A DNA stretch of 64,000 nt from Sphingomonas cremea. Its GTDB lineage: Bacteria; Pseudomonadota; Alphaproteobacteria; Sphingomonadales; Sphingomonadaceae. Positions within the stretch are counted from its first letter, which is position 1, and each line of letters opens with the position of its first letter. The DNA lies in the NCBI RefSeq assembly GCF_021502585.1, contig NZ_JAKFGM010000003.1:310001-374000 (forward strand). The letters are read 5' to 3'. The position numbers and the translations under genes are program-made. The notes beneath the pieces were generated by a model, which worked only from the letters and a program-made list of their open reading frames with translations, was not told the origin of the DNA and ran no database searches. Of this stretch, positions 12,185 through 25,631 are shown piece after piece.

Positions 12185-12801
12185 TGGTCCGAACTACCGA
12201 ATCCCTCCACGCCAGCCTCGACGCGCTCGCCGAGCGGGAGAAAGCCTTCGCCGCAGTGCTCGATGCCCATGGACGGCCAGAGCCGCGACAAAGCGAGCCG
12301 GGCGTTGAAACGCTCCTTAGGACTATCGTCGGCCAGCAGGTCAGCGTGCAGGCCGCGCGGTCGATGTGGAACAAGCTGACCGCCAAATATGGCCAGCCGG
12401 TCGATCTTGAGGCGGTATTGGCCGCGAGTGACGAAGAACTGCGCGAGGCCGGCTTATCGCGGCAAAAGGCGGGCTATGCGCGCAGCCTGGCGAGCCTCGT
12501 GTTGTCGGGCGAGCTCGACCTCGTCCACCTGCCGGAAGACGATGAGGAAGCAATCGCGCTTCTTACCAAGATCAAGGGCATCGGCCGCTGGTCGGCTGAA
12601 ATCTATCTGCTATTTGCGGAGGGCCGCGGCGACGTCTGGCCGGCTGGCGATCTCGCCGTGCAGATCGAGATCGGCAAGCTACTTGGGCTCGACGGAAAGC
12701 CGACCGAGAAGAAGCTACGCGAGCTTGCGGAAGCCTGGCGTCCACATCGCGGCGCAGCAGCCGTGCTCGCCTGGCACAGCTATAACGCCCCGCCGCTTTA
12801 G
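12184..12801 (+). CDS. DNA-3-methyladenine glycosylase II (AlkA-type, HhH-GPD)
   Basis: This is a 205-residue base-excision repair enzyme that removes alkylated purines. The HhH-GPD fold is seen as ETLLRTIVGQQVSVQAARSMW, the helix-hairpin-helix with LLTKIKGIGRWSAEIYLLF (about 127-146), and the catalytic aspartate D156 in WPAGDLAVQ. It is shorter than E. coli AlkA because the N-terminal TBP-like domain is absent, as in many bacterial homologues. The ATG at 12184 overlaps the rlmB stop. Its stop codon is interlocked with that of the convergent next gene (TTAG at 12798-12801). Confidence 0.9.
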   Translation: MVRTTESLHASLDALAEREKAFAAVLDAHGRPEPRQSEPGVETLLRTIVGQQVSVQAARSMWNKLTAKYGQPVDLEAVLAASDEELREAGLSRQKAGYARSLASLVLSGELDLVHLPEDDEEAIALLTKIKGIGRWSAEIYLLFAEGRGDVWPAGDLAVQIEIGKLLGLDGKPTEKKLRELAEAWRPHRGAAAVLAWHSYNAPPL

Positions 12802-14102
12802 CTAGCGCTCGTCAGCCCGCTGCTATGCGGCCGGGCGCTGAGGCCGCGGAAGATTCGTGGGCCAAGATCGAGCCGGAATGGCGCAAGCTTCTCATCGCCG
12901 TCGCCGCCACGGCCGACCAGGAAACTGGCCGAGGCCTGCCCTTCGCCGACGCCTGATCGGAATAAGATGTTGAACGCGACCAAGGGTACGAACAGCTTTC
13001 GGCCCTCGATCTCGAAGCTGTGCAGCTGATCGATCGGCAGGCGAACCGCGCTTTTCAGCGCGACCTTTGAAAGCGGGGCAATCGCGGCCATGCGGTCGCC
13101 GGTGGCCTGTGGCTGCTCGAAGAAAGCAGCAATCTCTCGATCTTGCCCTTCGTGCGCCGGTACCAGCTTTGCCTCCACCAGGACGTCCCTCGCTGGGGCC
13201 GAGCCGCTGTTGGTAAGGATGACATCGAACTGCAGCAGCACTTCCTGCTCAGTGATCACTGCCCGGTCGGGCTGGAACTGGACGTTGAGCTCCGGCTTGA
13301 GGCGGGTCGAAACGATGAGCCCTTCGCTTGCCGGCGCTGAACTCGGCCGGCGCGCCGACACGGGTGGAACCGAGTCCGGGCGCGGCGCAGGCTGCCCGCG
13401 AGGCGGGACCGGATCAGGCCGCGGAAGGGTTCTCGGCAATGGCGCCGGATCGACCTCTGTATCAGGGACCGGCCCGGCAAATGCCATTCGGGCGGGATCG
13501 CGGAGGCGCTGCTGGTAGCGGCGGCGGCTCCAGGTGATGAATGCGCCGCCGCCAATCAGCGCGATCAGCGCCGCAATCCATGGCCAGGATAGCAGCCCGT
13601 TATCGGCAGCGATTGAGGCGGCTGCGGGTAAGGTGCTTCCATCGTAGCTAGGCTGCGGCGCCGGATTGGTAGTCACATCCAGTGGAAGCGACCGAGTGAC
13701 GGTTTCGGTACTGGTAATATGATCCGCGGACGCCGGCGCATCCCTGGACGCCGTGGCAGCGAGCGATGAACTGGCAGTCGGGCGGCGAGCGATAGAGTCG
13801 GCGCTTGGCGCAGCCGATCCGGCAACGTCAGATGCGGAGGATACGCGCGACTCCGTCGGCGCGGTTGCGGCAGGTTCGGACTGCGTTGCGGCTGGGTGCT
13901 CGGCCGGGTGGGTGACTGTGCCTTGCAGGTTGAAATTCTGCAGTTGCGACGGGCCGACGACGTCGGTCGACGCCGGCGGCGCCGCGGTGACGTCGACTGG
14001 AGCGTCGCTGTTCTGGGCAACGGCGGGGGCGCCCATGGCAAGCAGAAGCGCGGCGGAAGTTCCGCCCAGAGCCTTCATCTTCATGCGGCGCAAAGCCGTC
14101 AT
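12798..14102 (-). CDS. Secreted or membrane protein with low-complexity region, unknown function
   Basis: This is a 434-residue protein I cannot assign. A signal peptide (about 1-30, ending GAPAVAQ) is followed by a 130-residue Ala/Ser/Thr/Pro-rich stretch and a membrane helix near 165-190 (LLSWPWIAALIALIGGGAFIT). After a Pro/Arg linker comes a compact C-terminal domain (about 265-430) whose beta pattern with ILTNSGSAPARDVLVEAKL recalls immunoglobulin-like/CARDB domains. The start is uncertain: GGGGGAG is almost against the ATG at 14102, and an in-frame TTG at 14093 is better spaced. It converges on the glycosylase gene and shares its stop bases. Confidence 0.75.
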   Translation of the reverse strand: MTALRRMKMKALGGTSAALLLAMGAPAVAQNSDAPVDVTAAPPASTDVVGPSQLQNFNLQGTVTHPAEHPAATQSEPAATAPTESRVSSASDVAGSAAPSADSIARRPTASSSLAATASRDAPASADHITSTETVTRSLPLDVTTNPAPQPSYDGSTLPAAASIAADNGLLSWPWIAALIALIGGGAFITWSRRRYQQRLRDPARMAFAGPVPDTEVDPAPLPRTLPRPDPVPPRGQPAPRPDSVPPVSARRPSSAPASEGLIVSTRLKPELNVQFQPDRAVITEQEVLLQFDVILTNSGSAPARDVLVEAKLVPAHEGQDREIAAFFEQPQATGDRMAAIAPLSKVALKSAVRLPIDQLHSFEIEGRKLFVPLVAFNILFRSGVGEGQASASFLVGRGGDGDEKLAPFRLDLGPRIFRGLSARPHSSGLTSAS

Positions 14103-19378: not shown

Positions 19379-19996
19379 CTAATCCACGGTCTCTCCGGAC
19401 AATGGCGTGGCCAACATTGAAGAACGGGACCCAAACTCATCCAGCCAATTACTGAGTTGGGGGCGCGTCGTGCGAAAGTCCGGCAGCTCCCGAAACTCCA
19501 GCCAGCTCAGCGCAGTTGCAACTGCGATGTGACCAACATGGATGGGGCCATGCATATCAAGTTCGCGCTCCAGCCAGTCATACCCTGCGACAAGCTTTTC
19601 GACGTATCCGTCGCGGAGCGGCATATATCGAAGGGCCTCTGGTCGGCGGACGGTTTCCCAACGCACTGCCATACCTGCTTCGCACAGTCCTTGTGACACT
19701 GCCGGTAGCTTCAACGCCTGCCAGCGCGCTTCTCCGGCCGCGGGAATGAGCCTTTCGCCATCGTGCAATGTGTCGAGGTAGGCGCAAATCACGTCTGAAT
19801 CGAAAATTGCGGCGTTATCTGGCCGAACGAGCACTGGAACTTTTCCTAACGGATTCTCGGCGAACACGAGGTCGTTACGATGCGTCGGACTGGTCTCCTG
19901 ATGCACCACCTCAATTTGATCCACCAACCCGGCTTCATGTGCGAATACCAGTGCTTTACGCGCATAAGGGGAATGCGTTTGATAGAGTAGTTTCAT
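19379..19996 (-). CDS. Glutathione S-transferase family protein
   Basis: This is a 205-residue protein. The N-terminal thioredoxin-like domain (1-80) has SPYARKALVFAHEAGL in the active-site region, the cis-Pro strand LGKVPVLV and the glutathione-binding DSDVICAYLDTL. The helical C-terminal domain follows, ending in TTRPQLSNWLDEFGSR. The catalytic position carries Ser/Tyr-type residues (S9, Y11) rather than Cys. It starts eight bases after the peptidase stop, so the two form one operon. The context suggests a glutathione-dependent step or detoxification within the adjacent catabolic block; the substrate is unknown. Confidence 0.88.
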   Translation of the reverse strand: MKLLYQTHSPYARKALVFAHEAGLVDQIEVVHQETSPTHRNDLVFAENPLGKVPVLVRPDNAAIFDSDVICAYLDTLHDGERLIPAAGEARWQALKLPAVSQGLCEAGMAVRWETVRRPEALRYMPLRDGYVEKLVAGYDWLERELDMHGPIHVGHIAVATALSWLEFRELPDFRTTRPQLSNWLDEFGSRSSMLATPLSGETVD

Positions 19997-20004
19997 TTCG
20001 AAGT

Positions 20005-21411
20005 TCACTCCCTGTTGTGGAGGAGGCAAGCCACTGCGGCGACGATCCTCTCCGCGGTTGGCAGGTGGAGAAATTCGTTGGGCCCATGCGCATTGGATTG
20101 CGGGCCAAGGACACCGGTCGCCACGAACTGCGCTGCGGGGAAGCGCTCACCTAGCATGGAAAGAAACGGTATTCCGCCCCCGCCGCCCATTAATGCAGAA
20201 GGCCTTCCGAAGGCTCGTTCGGAGGCCTCGTCCAAGGCGGTCTGGAGCCAATCGGCAAGCGCCGGCGCATGCCAACCCGGTGATACGAAATCGACGCGGA
20301 ATTGGACTTTGGCATTGTACGGAGGATTTTCTTCCAGCAACGCCTTCAACGTCGCGGCCGCACTCCGAGGATCCAGGGTCGGCGGAAGCCTGAGGCTGAG
20401 CTTCAAAGAGATATCGGGATGCATGACTGCCGCGGCCTGGGAGACCTCCGGCAGGCCGTCCATCCCGGTGATTGCCAGCTGCGGTCGCCAGGAACGGTTT
20501 AGCGAAAGCTCAACCGGATCGCTATTCACCGGTTGAAGTCCGTCATGAAGCGGCAACTGACTGAAAATTGCGGTTCCCAGAATGTCTCCAGACTGTTTTG
20601 CCTGGGTTCGCCGGTCGGCCGGAATTTGGACTTGGAAATCCGGCACAACCACTTCGCCGCTGTCTGGATCTTCAACGCGTGAGAGTAAGCCACGAGCAAT
20701 GCGAAATGGGGACGGCACCAGACCCGATGCCTCCCCCGAATGCATGCCTTCGGATAATACTCTTATTGTCAGCGTCCCAGCGACTTGGCCGCGCAACGAG
20801 GTCGTTACCCAAAGCTGGTCGTAGTTGCCGCAGCTCGCATCGAGAGCGATGATGAGTCCGGGTTCGCCGATGCGTTCCGCGAGCGCTTCGAAATAGAATG
20901 GGAGATCGAAGCTTCCGGATTCCTCGCAAGCTTCGATCAGAATGCGGCAAGGCGGATGTGCCAGTCCCTGTTCCCGCAAGGCGAGCAGCCCGGCGATTGC
21001 ACCAAACAATGAATAACCGTCGTCAGCACCACCGCGCCCATAAAGGCGATCGCCCTCGATGACCGGGGTCCAGGCACCTCGCCCGTTCACCCAGCCATCC
21101 ATCGGGGGCTGTTTGTCCAGGTGGCCATAAATCAAAACTGGCGAACGCCCGTCGCCTGGAACATCAATGAAAATTACCGGCGTTCGCCTCGGAATCCGAA
21201 GAACGTCGACGACCGCGCCAGGCGTTCCGCAAAGGCTGCGGCGTGCCCAGCCAGCCATTAGTTCGACCGCCCGATCGATGTGACCTGTCCCCTCCCAGTC
21301 GCAGTCGAATGCCGGAGATTCGCAGGGAATCTCTATGTAGCTTAGCAAGGAGGGCATTACCTCCGTTACCCAGATCTGTTCGATAAAGGCTTGCAGCCGG
21401 TCAAAATCCAT
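20005..21411 (-). CDS. M20-family metallopeptidase/amidohydrolase
   Basis: This is a 468-residue zinc-dependent dipeptidase or N-acyl hydrolase. The metal and catalytic residues of clan MH are visible: H97 and D99 in IYGHLDKQP, the bridging acid in RGGADDGYS (130-131), the Glu pair in EACEESGS (163-164) and a C-terminal His in NAHGPNEF. A dimerisation domain (about 200-340) contains SEGMHSGEASG. The ATG at 21411 (MDFDRLQAFIEQ) was preferred to 21453. The gene is transcribed away from the Lrp gene across a region carrying a GCGGAA-type inverted repeat, so Lrp-type control is likely. Members differ in substrate (dipeptides, N-succinyl or N-carbamoyl amino acids), which cannot be decided here. 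Confidence 0.9.
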   Translation of the reverse strand: MDFDRLQAFIEQIWVTEVMPSLLSYIEIPCESPAFDCDWEGTGHIDRAVELMAGWARRSLCGTPGAVVDVLRIPRRTPVIFIDVPGDGRSPVLIYGHLDKQPPMDGWVNGRGAWTPVIEGDRLYGRGGADDGYSLFGAIAGLLALREQGLAHPPCRILIEACEESGSFDLPFYFEALAERIGEPGLIIALDASCGNYDQLWVTTSLRGQVAGTLTIRVLSEGMHSGEASGLVPSPFRIARGLLSRVEDPDSGEVVVPDFQVQIPADRRTQAKQSGDILGTAIFSQLPLHDGLQPVNSDPVELSLNRSWRPQLAITGMDGLPEVSQAAAVMHPDISLKLSLRLPPTLDPRSAAATLKALLEENPPYNAKVQFRVDFVSPGWHAPALADWLQTALDEASERAFGRPSALMGGGGGIPFLSMLGERFPAAQFVATGVLGPQSNAHGPNEFLHLPTAERIVAAVACLLHNRE

Positions 21412-21487
21412 ACAACGTTTCCTGTGCCAATATGGCGCGTTGTAACGGCGCAAGTGGGCGGTTAGGCCGCGAGATAGATCGCCATCG

Positions 21488-21502
21488 CGCGGAATTTCCG
21501 CG
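21488..21502. promoter_or_regulatory. Inverted repeat, putative Lrp-family operator (site 1)
   Basis: CGCGGAA-T-TTCCGCG is a perfect 15-base dyad in the 119-base spacer between the divergent peptidase and Lrp-type genes. A half-site, ATTTCCGTG, follows at 21524-21532 over the Lrp start codon. The same core recurs at 22010-22022 before the lyase gene. Size and symmetry fit Lrp/AsnC operators, and autoregulation by the neighbouring regulator is the simplest reading. Confidence 0.65.
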
Positions 21503-21530
21503 ATAATATTGATAAAAATGAGAGATTTCC

Positions 21531-22001
21531 GTGGAACTCGATAATTTCGACCGGCAGCTGCTCAATCTTGTTCAAGAGGATGCCGACCAAACCTCGGAAC
21601 GATTGGCAGAGCAGATACACCTATCTCCATCCGCTATTCAGCGGCGGCTAAAAAGGCTGCGCAAAGAAGGCGTCATCGCGCGCGAGTGCGCGGTTCTGGA
21701 GCCAAAGAAGATCGGTCGACCGACCTTCTTCATTGTCTCGCTCCAGGTCGAGCGCGAAAGGCCAGAACTTCTGGCGGAACTCCGTCGATGGTTGTCGCGG
21801 GAGCCGCACATACAACAGGCATTTTATGTGACGGGTGAAGCAGACTTTGTTTTGGTAGTGACCGTGCCCGACACAGATGCCTACGACGAGTTGATGTCAC
21901 GATTGGTTCGCGAGAATTCCAACCTGAAGCGATTCACCACCAGTGTGGCCCTGGGCGTAGTGAAGCGCGGGCTGACAATTCCAGTGCCCTTGGAGGATTG
22001 A
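21531..22001 (+). CDS. Lrp/AsnC-family transcriptional regulator
   Basis: This is a 156-residue regulator. The N-terminal winged helix (residues 1-60) reads DNFDRQLLNLVQEDADQTSERLAEQIHLSPSAIQRRLKRLRKEGVI, the standard Lrp HTH. The C-terminal RAM ligand domain (70-150) has YVTGEADFVLVVTVPDTDAYDEL. Such proteins sense amino acids or related compounds and often control adjacent catabolic genes. The start is the GTG at 21531, with GAGAG before it. It is divergent from the peptidase-GST pair and upstream of the PLP-lyase and cyclase genes. The ligand is presumably the substrate of that block. Confidence 0.93.
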   Translation: MELDNFDRQLLNLVQEDADQTSERLAEQIHLSPSAIQRRLKRLRKEGVIARECAVLEPKKIGRPTFFIVSLQVERERPELLAELRRWLSREPHIQQAFYVTGEADFVLVVTVPDTDAYDELMSRLVRENSNLKRFTTSVALGVVKRGLTIPVPLED

Positions 22002-22009
22002 TGTGCCGC

Positions 22010-22022
22010 GCGGAAATTCCGC
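22010..22022. promoter_or_regulatory. Inverted repeat, putative Lrp-family operator (site 2)
   Basis: GCGGAA-A-TTCCGC is a perfect 13-base dyad starting nine bases after the Lrp stop and 85 bases before the lyase ATG. It has the same half-sites as the dyad at 21488-21502, differing only in the central base and one outer pair. Its position suggests a second promoter for the lyase-cyclase genes under the same regulator. Confidence 0.65.
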
Positions 22023-22107: not shown

Positions 22108-23076
22108 ATGAACAAATCACCCGAGCCACAGTTTCCGCCAACCCCACTCCTCGACCTACCCGAGGTCGCCCGGATCGCTAAGGTCGCGAGGGTCTTTGTA
22201 AAAGACGAAGGCCAGCGTCCTTTGGGAAATTTCAAGGTTCTCGGTGGAATGCTTGCGGGAATCCGCGCCCTAGATCGCGCAAATGTCCACAACCCACGGC
22301 TGATTTGTGCGAGTGACGGCAATCATGGGCTTGCGGTCGCAGCGGCAGCCAAACATTGTGGCGCCATCTCGCGCATCTACCTTCCAACAGGCGCCTCGAT
22401 CGAGCGTGCGGCTCGAATTAGGTCAGAAGGCGGCGAGATCGCATGGATCACGGGAACGTACGACGATGCGGTGAACGCTGCCGCTGCTGCCGCTGAACAA
22501 GGCGAGGGAATTCTCGTTCCCGACACCACCAGCAAGGCGTCAGATCCAATCGTCGACGACGTTATGTTGGGTTACGGGCGGATTTGTCATGAGCTACTGA
22601 GCCAACTGCCAGAGGCCCCCACACATGTTTTCGTGCAGGCCGGGGTGGGTGGGTTGGCCGCCGCCCTGGCCATAGGCCTGCGCGACTACATGGCAGAACC
22701 CGCCCACATTATCGTCGTCGAGCCGGAAGCTGCCGCGTGCGTCAGCGAGGGTCTCACTGCCGGGCGGCCAGTGCAAATTGAAGGTGATCTTGAGACATGT
22801 GCGGAAATGTTATCCTGTGGGCTCGCATCGGCACCAGCACTAGAGATCTTGATCAAATGCGAAAGTCGATCGCTCCTTGTGAATGAATTGGCACTTGAAC
22901 GATCGGTACGAACACTGAAAGAGTGCGAAGGCCCCTTGACCACGCCCTCTGGCGCCGCCGGACTGGCAGGACTCCTTCATGCAGCGGGCAATAAAGACCT
23001 TCGCAACCGATTGGACCTTGGAAGCAATAGCAAGGTCTTGCTCATCGCCACGGAAAGAAATCTCTCGAGTCCATAA
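22108..23076 (+). CDS. PLP-dependent lyase related to diaminopropionate ammonia-lyase
   Basis: This is a 322-residue fold-type II PLP enzyme. The Schiff-base lysine is K43 in LGNFKVLGGMLAG. The phosphate/substrate loop is SDGNHGLAVAAAAKHCG (69-85), the form seen in diaminopropionate ammonia-lyases and threonine deaminase-like enzymes. A glycine-rich loop appears as QAGVGGLAAALA, and EPEAAACVSEGL and TTPSGAAGLAGL complete the site. At 322 residues it is about 80 shorter than typical DpaL/YgeX proteins, so it may be a distinct subfamily. Expected chemistry is alpha,beta-elimination releasing ammonia from an amino acid. It lies behind operator site 2 and is followed by the cyclase gene after 96 bases. 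Confidence 0.82.
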   Translation: MNKSPEPQFPPTPLLDLPEVARIAKVARVFVKDEGQRPLGNFKVLGGMLAGIRALDRANVHNPRLICASDGNHGLAVAAAAKHCGAISRIYLPTGASIERAARIRSEGGEIAWITGTYDDAVNAAAAAAEQGEGILVPDTTSKASDPIVDDVMLGYGRICHELLSQLPEAPTHVFVQAGVGGLAAALAIGLRDYMAEPAHIIVVEPEAAACVSEGLTAGRPVQIEGDLETCAEMLSCGLASAPALEILIKCESRSLLVNELALERSVRTLKECEGPLTTPSGAAGLAGLLHAAGNKDLRNRLDLGSNSKVLLIATERNLSSP

Positions 23077-23172
23077 TTTCGCAAGATTGAGCGGCGGGCC
23101 AATTTTGGGACAATGTATCGGCAACGATCACCGGGCCCGTTTGACTTCGGGTTCGCTGCCAAGGAGTGCCAA

Positions 23173-24081
23173 ATGGTGAACGACAAAAGGGTCTGTTTCG
23201 ATTTCGAGATCGAATTCCTGAATGGTGGCGGAATCCAGGGACAGGGGTTCAGGCTGGATATCGAGGGCGAAACCATCGCCGATGATACGTTGGCTGCCTA
23301 TATTGTTGCCGACTTGCGCTTGTTGATGGTGGGCGAGGTCCGCATCCTCAACAAGAAGTTCATCACGGAACGCCATAAGCGAACATCAACGCCCGGTGCC
23401 CACTTGGCTGGTGATGACCCGCGCCGGCTCATCGACCTTAGCCACGTGATCGAAGACGGCATGATCACCTACAAGGGGCTACCCGCACCAATCATCTGCG
23501 ATCATCTTTCCCGCGCCAGGTCTCGCGAAATTTATGCGGAAGGAACCGAGTTCCAGATCGACAGGATCGAAATGGTCGGCAACACCGGCACCTATCTGGA
23601 CACGCCGTTCCATCGCTATGCCGACGGCCAGGATCTTTCGGAAATGGCACTCGATCGCATGGCGGATTGCCCGGGCGCGGTCGTTCGAGTGGAAGGGTCG
23701 CGTCAACGAGAGGTCGACCAAATGGCATTCGCGGCCGTCGACGTCTCGGGGAAGGCGGTATTGGTCCACACGGGTTGGGATCGCCACTGGCGAACCGATC
23801 AATATTTCGAGGGCCATCCGCACCTTACCGAGGCCGCCGCAGTCCATCTTCGGGATCGGGGGGCAATCTTGGTCGGGATCGACTCGTTCAACATTGACGA
23901 CACGTCGGGCAATACTCGCCCAGTTCACTCAATATTGCTGGGAGCGGGGATTCCGATTGTCGAGCATATGACCAACCTGGGTGCTCTCCCCGCGGATGGA
24001 TTTCGCTTCTTTGCGGTCCCGCCGAAGGTACGGAAAATGGGAACGTTCCCCGTACGGGCTCACGCACTGCTGCCAGGATGA
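23173..24081 (+). CDS. Cyclase-family metal hydrolase (kynurenine formamidase-like) with extra N-terminal domain
   Basis: This is a 302-residue protein in two parts. Residues 84-302 match the cyclase/kynurenine formamidase family: RRLIDLSHVIEDGMITYKGLP, then the metal-site motif in the variant GNTGTYLDTPFHRYADG (136-152), then VLVHTGWDRHW and GIDSFNIDD. Residues 1-75 form an additional small domain (CFDFEIEFLNGGGIQGQGFRLDI, AAYIVADLRLLMVGEVRIL) that I do not recognise and that most family members lack. AAGGAG at 23161-23166 supports the ATG at 23173. The canonical HxGTHxDxPxH is altered to N and Y at the first and third positions, a known subfamily variation. It probably hydrolyses an amide or ring in the same pathway as the lyase. 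Confidence 0.85.
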   Translation: MVNDKRVCFDFEIEFLNGGGIQGQGFRLDIEGETIADDTLAAYIVADLRLLMVGEVRILNKKFITERHKRTSTPGAHLAGDDPRRLIDLSHVIEDGMITYKGLPAPIICDHLSRARSREIYAEGTEFQIDRIEMVGNTGTYLDTPFHRYADGQDLSEMALDRMADCPGAVVRVEGSRQREVDQMAFAAVDVSGKAVLVHTGWDRHWRTDQYFEGHPHLTEAAAVHLRDRGAILVGIDSFNIDDTSGNTRPVHSILLGAGIPIVEHMTNLGALPADGFRFFAVPPKVRKMGTFPVRAHALLPG

Positions 24082-24120: not shown

Positions 24121-24525
24121 TCAGGCATATTGCTCCTCCGATACGAGCTCGAAGCCTTCGTCCACCCAACCGGTGATGCCCCCGGCCATAATCTTCACCG
24201 GCCTGCCGAGTTGCGCCAATCTCAACGCGCCGCGCGCCGCACCATTGCAATGGGGACCAGCGCAATAGGTAACGAACAGGGTGTTCTCCGGCCACGCCGC
24301 AATCTTGCTGCCAATGATTTTGCCATGCGGAAGATTGATCGCCCCTGGCACGTGACCTTTCGCGAACAGCGCCGGCGATCGCACGTCGAGTAATACGAAA
24401 TCGGCATTGCTCCCGAGACTTGAATGTACGTCCCAGCAGTCGGTCTCAAATGCGAACTCTGCGGCAAAATGCGCGACGGCATCTGCGGCGGGCGCTGCGG
24501 GTGATTGAGTTACGGCGGTCGCCAT
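24121..24525 (-). CDS. Rhodanese-like domain protein
   Basis: This is a 134-residue single-domain rhodanese. The fold signature is VLLDVRSPALFAKGHVPGAINLPHG, and the active loop begins with C88 in TYCAGPHCNGAARGALRLAQLG, followed by IMAGGITGWVDEGF. The loop CAGPHCNG differs from thiosulfate sulfurtransferases (CRKGVT) and is the type often paired with FtrA-like regulators. The ATG at 24525 has GGAG six bases upstream, better placed than the ATG at 24537. It is divergent from the FtrA-type gene across a 68-base promoter region. Sulfur transfer or arsenate/cyanide detoxification are possible roles. Confidence 0.88.
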   Translation of the reverse strand: MATAVTQSPAAPAADAVAHFAAEFAFETDCWDVHSSLGSNADFVLLDVRSPALFAKGHVPGAINLPHGKIIGSKIAAWPENTLFVTYCAGPHCNGAARGALRLAQLGRPVKIMAGGITGWVDEGFELVSEEQYA

Positions 24526-24593
24526 GTCGGTCTCCATTTCTTGATATGTGCATGGATTCTTTCAACTGGACGTTCGCGGCACAAGTGGCGTAA

Positions 24594-25631
24594 ATGACCA
24601 ACAAGCGAGAAATCATGCCAAAATCCGGGAATCAAAGATCGGATCATGCAAACCGCAAGGTGGTCGTCATTGCTTATGATGGCCTGACGCTGTTTGAATT
24701 CGGGATAGCAACCGAGGTATTCGGCCTGAATCGCCCCGAGGTTGAGGACTGGTACCGATATTGCGTCGTGGCCGCCGAACCTGGGCTCCTCACAGCAACG
24801 GGCGGCGTGAAATTGGCTGTCGACGGTGGATTGGAACTCCTGTCCGATGTGGGAACCATCATCGTCCCTGGCTGGCGTGGCGCCGAAGCTGTTGTACCAA
24901 AATCCCTGGTGACGGCCTTATGTGCAGCCCATGCCGCTGGAGCCCGGCTAGTTTCGATCTGCTCCGGCGTTTTCGTCCTGGCCGCGACGGGCCTGCTTGA
25001 TGGCCGAAGGGCAACGACCCACTGGCGGTACACGGACGCCTTGGCTCGCCAATACCCCGAAATCAATATTGAGCCGGATGTACTCTATGTTGACGAAGGG
25101 GACGTGCTGACCTCCGCGGGAAGCGCGGCAGGGATCGATCTTTGCCTGCACATTGTACGTAACGACCATGGCCCTGAAGTGGCGAACCTGATCGCCAGGC
25201 GCCTGATCGTCCCCGCCCATCGCTCCGGTGGACAAGCCCAATATATCGAAATGCCCGTCCCTCCCGAGCACGAAGCGGGCCGGATCGGCTTGGTGCTGGA
25301 TCAAATGCGAAGCGCCCTGTCCGAGAGCCATTCGGTAGCCAGGCTGTCGAAATTGGCGGGCATGAGCAACCGCACGTTCCTCCGGCGATTTGAAGCCGCA
25401 ACGGGCATGACGCCTTCACGCTGGCTCATCCAGGAGCGCGTTCGGCGGGCACGGGAATTGCTCGAGGTTACGCGACTGCCAGTGGAAACCATTGCGGTGG
25501 ATTGTGGATTTGGCACGACTGCGACGATGCGCCATCACTTCCGCCGCTGTCTTTCAACAAGGCCGATCGATTATCGGTCGCAATTCTCCCGATCCGAACC
25601 AAGCGGTACAGCGATGACGAGACGTGGCTAG
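24594..25631 (+). CDS. ftrA: GlxA/FtrA-family AraC-type transcriptional regulator
   Basis: This is a 345-residue regulator with an N-terminal DJ-1/PfpI-like domain (about 21-200: VVVIAYDGLTLFEFGIATEVFG, then the nucleophile-elbow region SICSGVFVLAATGLLDGRRATTHW). A C-terminal AraC double HTH follows (about 235-335: ARLSKLAGMSNRTFLRRFEAATGMTPSRWL and VETIAVDCGFGTTATMRHHFRR). The DJ-1 domain probably binds a small amine or amide without catalysis. The start could be the ATG at 24594 or the one at 24615; neither has a strong ribosome site. It is divergent from the rhodanese gene, a pairing seen in other proteobacteria. It ends four bases from the tRNA-Leu 3' end. Confidence 0.9.
   Translation: MTNKREIMPKSGNQRSDHANRKVVVIAYDGLTLFEFGIATEVFGLNRPEVEDWYRYCVVAAEPGLLTATGGVKLAVDGGLELLSDVGTIIVPGWRGAEAVVPKSLVTALCAAHAAGARLVSICSGVFVLAATGLLDGRRATTHWRYTDALARQYPEINIEPDVLYVDEGDVLTSAGSAAGIDLCLHIVRNDHGPEVANLIARRLIVPAHRSGGQAQYIEMPVPPEHEAGRIGLVLDQMRSALSESHSVARLSKLAGMSNRTFLRRFEAATGMTPSRWLIQERVRRARELLEVTRLPVETIAVDCGFGTTATMRHHFRRCLSTRPIDYRSQFSRSEPSGTAMTRRG

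Follow-up and report, generated by a model that had tools for sequence, protein, structure and literature searches.

The locus described here lies in a stretch of 64,000 nucleotides of a Sphingomonas cremea contig (NZ_JAKFGM010000003.1, positions 310,001 to 374,000), which we will refer to as the window. It comprises a leftward M20-GST operon, a divergent rightward regulator gene (lrp), and the genes of a PLP-dependent enzyme ("lyase") and a putative cyclase (Table 1). The spacer between the M20 gene and lrp has 119 bp, and that between lrp and the lyase gene 106 bp; for the M20 gene, the ATG at 21411 is the probable start as judged from the sequence (the ORF list gives TTG at 21453). The regulator is a member of the Lrp/AsnC family, with an N-terminal AsnC-type winged helix-turn-helix (PF13404, 51.1 bits, cut-off 27) and a C-terminal AsnC ligand domain (PF01037, 54.6 bits, cut-off 25); against the E. 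coli Lrp equivalog model NF008370 it reaches 67.8 bits, below the cut-off of 233. Its relatives show identities of 75-80%, and its recognition helix reads SPSAIQRRL, with Gln at residue 37. The lyase belongs to the PALP family and is nearest to diaminopropionate ammonia-lyase, but its 247.5 bits against NF006058 fall below the cut-off of 276. Adjoining the cyclase gene, positions 24121-25631 hold a rhodanese-like gene divergent from an FtrA-type AraC regulator (24594-25631; 496 bits, over the FtrA cut-off of 425).

Table 1. Genes and palindromic features around lrp, in window coordinates.
Feature	Position	Strand	Remarks
GST-like protein	19379..20029	-	Pfam GST_N_2 3e-18; distal gene of the left operon
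M20-family peptidase	20005..21411	-	Pfam Peptidase_M20 2e-17
Upstream dyad GCGG-TTAGG-CCGC	21458..21470	none	Centre 21464; 8/8 specified bases; newly found
Site 1, CGCGGAA-T-TTCCGCG = CGCGGAATTTCCGCG	21488..21502	none	Centre 21495; 7-1-7 symmetry
Possible weak third member, GAGAGATTTCCGT	21520..21532	none	Centre 21526, next 31-bp step; over lrp RBS and GTG
Lrp/AsnC regulator, 156 aa, GTG start	21531..22001	+	Pfam AsnC_trans_reg 1e-14, HTH_AsnC-type 1e-13
Site 2, GCGGAA-A-TTCCGC = GCGGAAATTCCGC	22010..22022	none	Centre 22016; 6-1-6 symmetry
PLP-dependent enzyme ("lyase")	22108..23076	+	Pfam PALP 4e-58
Putative cyclase/arylformamidase-like hydrolase	23113..24081	+	Pfam Cyclase 2e-22

Two perfect palindromes flank lrp (sites 1 and 2), exactly as a preliminary description had reported them, and the half-site ATTTCCGTG that it had placed over the lrp start is present at 21524-21532. 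The centre of site 1 lies exactly 31 bp from that of the newly found upstream dyad, the two members of this phased pair starting at 21458 and 21489, and site 1 itself sits between weak -35/-10-like hexamers of lrp (21479-21507), promoter-like pairs in this region numbering 2 against a shuffle average of 0.6. The possible third member, GAGAGATTTCCGT, which contains the half-site, matches only 5 of the 8 specified bases, a score also found by chance beside two unrelated copies of the motif. Site 2 is located 8 bp past the lrp stop and some 86 bp ahead of the lyase start, and a phased partner for it was not found in the window, the position at +31 scoring 3/8. The duplicated operator of the preliminary description holds insofar as dyads precede both arms, but it is not a simple duplication, as a 31-bp pair lies upstream of lrp and site 2 stands alone. 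The upstream arrangement is that of a putative Lrp/AsnC operator array, i.e., dyads that face the same side of the helix at intervals of two or three turns, and in sequence the candidate dyads fit the 13-17-bp Lrp dyads with an AT-rich centre.

Related Lrp genes were compared in 45 loci, comprising those with an Lrp identity of at least 53% and five more distant ones (L072, L097, L099, L102, L117), with other loci left out; since many of them hold a flank of 1.5 kb, neighbours were read to the flank end only. Lags and recognition helices were counted in 41 of the loci, the near-duplicates L113, L114, L115 and L102 being removed. A motif-agnostic test of dyad lags gave a z of 5.2 for lag 31 and equally 5.2 for lag 18, and a motif-based test was adopted because the former is too noisy. 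The motif, the lag and the 65-bp limit used below were picked after viewing the sequences, so the motif-based lag figures are descriptive: two sites with at least 7/8 specified bases occur at a lag of 31 bp upstream of lrp in 16 of the 41 loci (shuffle mean 0.14, maximum 2 in 300; random segments of the same loci, taken as control, mean 0.33, maximum 3 in 300 draws), such a pair being absent in 25. Downstream of lrp the same lag is found in 4/41 (shuffle mean 0.35, maximum 3). Other upstream lags are 23 bp, in five loci, and 62 bp, in four.

By clade, lag 31 is found in 11 of 20 loci of a mostly VOC-linked clade, with sites at about -78, -47 and -16, and in 5 of the 21 outside it; four of the latter 21 have GCSG-N5-CSGC sites upstream of lrp at a lag of 23 bp. 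In G1228 (L150), the closest relative, a single 7/8 dyad lies at -43 and lacks a 31-bp partner upstream, and two related palindromes in Chelatococcus (L074) lie about 30, not 31, bp apart, the best scoring 6/8. By the criteria of the half-site classification, a site was found in none of L064, L068, L071, L072, L074, L097 and L112. Likewise, among 11 spacers from less closely related Lrp genes (eight next to a lyase gene, two others and one unannotated), none contains an 8/8 dyad, the best reaching 5 to 7 of 8. Other half-sites were noticed by eye in these distant spacers; in the divergent spacers of L089, L091, L093, L108, L109 and L110, associated with a diaminopropionate-type lyase (L091 is unannotated, its lyase match being 36%), they seem to be shared and of the TTGC(G) and GCAAAAAT-like kind, and a distinct operator code is possible for this group.

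Downstream of lrp, a GCGG-N5-CCGC dyad with at least 7/8 specified bases lies within 65 bp of the stop codon in all ten loci with a lyase gene after lrp vs. 7 of 35 others, a count that takes in all 45 loci. Shuffles of those ten spacers gave a mean of 2.6 and a maximum of 9; once near-duplicates were removed, the dyad was present in 7/7 (shuffle mean 1.8, with seven reached in 1 of 5000). Four g69 genomes carry it 7 bp past the lrp stop (8 in the window), as GCGGAAAATCCGC in L111, L114 and L115 and as GCGGGAAATCCGC in L113. Comparison thus supports part of the preliminary description, as such dyads come back beside the Lrp genes of this lineage with their positions and phase conserved.

Concerning the neighbouring genes, the complete arrangement of GST-M20 divergent from Lrp-lyase is present in G418, G220 and G1228 (Lrp 79%). 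S. gei has GST divergent from Lrp-lyase, G1015 has Lrp-lyase followed by M20-GST, and on a Chelatococcus plasmid Lrp is divergent from GST and from a PLP enzyme of 28% identity. The two-arm unit proposed earlier is therefore kept in several relatives as far as GST/M20 on the left and Lrp-lyase on the right are concerned, but not for the cyclase, found in 0 of the 41 Lrp loci whose sequence extends 3 kb or more past lrp (this set coincides only in part with the 41 loci of the lag counts). Among 397 genomes drawn from the family, an Lrp match (E at most 1e-26) was found in 23 and a lyase match (at most 1e-50) in 6, both including the window's genome, and thus the locus is sporadic. In a sister group (L121-L137), a glyoxalase/VOC-like gene is divergent from a close Lrp relative, many of these loci having dyads at about -78 and -47; a PLP-like gene lies between the Lrp and VOC genes in some of them.

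The half-sites of the 41 loci of the lag counts were further compared with the recognition helix. Among 22 loci with Gln37 (SAIQRR or SAVQRR), 11 have GCGG-type half-sites, 5 GCCG-type and 6 are ties, while the 18 with Leu or Ser at this position include 1 GCGG-type, 15 GCCG-type and 2 ties; His is present in one locus, a tie. Six exceptions (L035, L119, L120, L149 and L151, with Gln and GCCG-type sites, and L137, with Leu and GCGG-type sites) and eight ties are therefore included in the 40 loci for which residue 37 and half-site base -4 were compared (Fisher 0.0006, uncorrected for kinship), and much of this association is one deep split. A nested reversal is found within it: L123 and L129 (Gln) have GCGGCTTTTCCGC at -78, and L127 and L128 (Leu) have GCGGCATTCCGGC and GCCGCATTCCGGC, their dyads being half or fully GCCG-type. 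The two pairs of proteins differ at eight positions, of which only 37 is in the recognition helix (placed by alignment); the shift in L123 and L129 is incomplete, since their -47 site keeps a CGGC right half. These sequences lend some appeal to a one-residue switch, whose chances we put at somewhat below even, in which residue 37 would set base -4 (Gln for GCGG...CCGC, Leu or Ser for GCCG...CGGC) and sister operons would be insulated from each other; the L123/L129 lineage would then have gone back to Gln, with the -78 dyad shifting too. Close relatives that differ by Gln or Leu, with the base changed to match, would make a small, testable case of how new DNA specificity arises in Lrp proteins. 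Specificity covariation as such is an older idea, since PMC4177876 mentions co-variation of amino acids in archaeal relatives.

From all these observations, we consider it likely that the palindromes are operators of the Lrp/AsnC autoregulator encoded between them, phased at 31 bp on the upstream side and controlling both the GST-M20 and the PLP-lyase arms. The two matching palindromes beside lrp are very probably its own binding sites, and the evenly spaced set to which they belong would be expected to switch the adjoining genes for the breakdown of peptides and amino acids. This reading is built on sequence, phase, conservation and linkage, from which we infer Lrp binding, the oligomeric state, the sign of regulation and the effector. 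The least probable of the alternatives, to which we give very little weight, is that the GC-rich palindromes have no function and reflect chance or common descent. Pairs of identical palindromes no more than 1 kb apart, with 1 occurrence in the whole window against a shuffle mean of 0.15, appear at least once in 7 of 60 shuffled windows, and by itself the pair is moderately rare window-wide, no more. What makes it convincing is that its two members occupy the two spacers of a single gene, together with the comparative data: a palindrome with 6-nt arms (gap 0-3) common to both spacers was obtained in 0 of 20,000 dinucleotide-shuffled spacer pairs, and the counts of phase, position and conservation given above also speak against chance. 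The phased pattern (GCSG-N5-CSGC twice at 31 bp, at most one mismatch) has a single window match, with 0 mismatches, and this count alone is not significant because 47 of 100 shuffles match at that tolerance.

Copies elsewhere also bear on the chance explanation. Exact copies of GCGGAANTTCCGC number three in the window and four in the 2.55-Mb genome, with 2 for the reversed control. The third one, GCGGAAGTTCCGC at 14053-14065, falls within the 5' part, among the first codons, of a hypothetical minus-strand gene (12798-14102), and the fourth (C1:1114683) within codons about 7-10 of an M13 peptidase gene. These two extra copies in coding DNA exceed the roughly 0.3 calculated from base composition, a point in favour of palindromes without function; we take both as coincidences of signal-peptide-like codons. 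The copy at 14053-14065 had been overlooked in the preliminary description, whose claim of no other copy in the regulatory spacers stands, since that copy is in coding sequence. Nor is the motif scattered over the genome without relation to lrp: besides the two exact coding copies, there are 12 non-exact copies (GCGGANNNTCCGC), of which the 6 examined all fall inside putative coding frames, open for 100 aa or more, and a 31-bp partner above 5/8 was found beside none of these two exact and six looser copies. The looser motif was also searched in seven relatives; among the matches listed, exact copies in G886 and G893, lying in ribosomal-protein-like (rplT by reading) and integrase-like frames, were taken as chance.

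Site 2 could also be read as an intrinsic terminator of lrp, its likeness to site 1 being a coincidence, which appears improbable to us, although less so than the other alternatives. In the window it is terminator-like, as a terminator scan lists 22010-22022 with 5 pairs, a loop of 3 and the tail TTAATTTCGG, and its want of a 31-bp partner would agree with such a role; on the other side, the same scan returns 1.2 such sites per shuffle, the same dyad is also present upstream of lrp, and the GC stem with a T run is not what relatives appear to keep, as L111 and L113-L115 retain the dyad but have TTGGCGC or CTGGTGC after it in place of a T run. Very improbable, in turn, is that the dyads serve another regulator, e.g., the FtrA-like AraC protein, the Lrp gene being a bystander. 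Such a second regulator gene does lie 2.6 kb downstream, and the link between Lrp and the dyads is a sequence-based one; but the phased dyads occur beside lrp despite varied neighbours (GST, M20, lyase, VOC), a weak FtrA match (28-29%; L035, L095) is found in only 2 of the 41 loci that extend 3 kb or more downstream, and the half-site class tracks the Lrp recognition helix.

If the palindromes are operators of the Lrp regulator, dimers of an Lrp oligomer would bind 13-bp dyads of the form GCGG-N5-CCGC, the centre of which is often AT-rich. Two such dyads in the shared promoter, 31 bp or about three helical turns apart, would be occupied on the same side of the helix, and a weak third step, centred at 21526 where lrp starts, may belong with them. 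The array would overlie the promoter of lrp as well as the shared one for leftward transcription. Its most likely outcome would be self-repression of lrp, as suggested by the position of site 1 between the promoter-like hexamers, plus ligand-dependent control of the M20-GST operon. Site 2 would control the rightward lyase gene, a role to which its distance from the lyase start is suited. By analogy with BarR, as far as described in the available part of PMC10201364, the shared region may be wrapped by an octamer that represses lrp and switches the neighbouring gene in response to a small molecule; the effector would be amino-acid or dipeptide-like. We infer only from the enzyme types that a GST, a dipeptidase-like M20 protein and a beta-eliminating lyase would fit a cysteine-conjugate or a diaminopropionate-containing dipeptide, and the function of the locus is presumably catabolic. 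The significance of the locus would lie in the operator code and phase that it predicts for a lineage of Lrp/AsnC regulators of which no description was found, and in the predicted joint work of GST, M20 peptidase and PLP lyase.

In the available portions of open-licence papers, on Lrp and diaminopropionate lyase, Lrp spacing and alphaproteobacterial Lrp regulons as well as on motif/recognition-helix covariation, Sphingomonas palindromic sites and M20/GST/AsnC, a description of this locus was not found. Comparable gene arrangements are present in Paraburkholderia, Burkholderia and Bosea (L089, L093, L108, L109), where Lrp is divergent from an annotated diaminopropionate ammonia-lyase together with M20 or an amidohydrolase; unlike in the window, the best GCGG-N5-CCGC match in their spacers is 5-6 of 8, and GST is lacking in the annotated stretches. 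In Pseudomonas aeruginosa, PA2577 is an Lrp/AsnC protein acting on a divergent neighbour, which differs in that its target is a transporter and that ChIP-seq gave no specific motif, a pseudopalindrome only, according to the part of PMC8707732 at hand, where a periodicity of 30-31 bp is also mentioned. Archaeal members of the Lrp family, including Ss-LrpB, have 13-17-bp dyads with an AT-rich centre two or three helical turns apart (PMC2995911, in part); the regulators and targets are others, and the comparison covers dyad size, AT-rich centre and spacing. For BarR, an Lrp-type regulator of Sulfolobales, the accessible part of PMC10201364 describes a local lrp gene transcribed away from that of an amino-acid enzyme, with several 15-bp semipalindromes in the shared region and an octamer by which the intergenic DNA is apparently wrapped; in an E. 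coli reporter system, Ah-BarR acts as a repressor of its own gene and as an activator of the neighbour. In contrast to the window, BarR is archaeal, its sites are AT-rich and TTG...CAA-like, two turns apart in the Sa and St homologues, its partner is an aminotransferase, and a site behind the regulator gene was not seen in that part of the source. On the other hand, the local Lrp gene, the divergent enzyme gene and the several dyads in the shared region are common to both. The locus would represent an ordinary kind of system, well supported in its sequence features and with a clear cis-architecture, that is, a new example of a known form of bacterial gene control.
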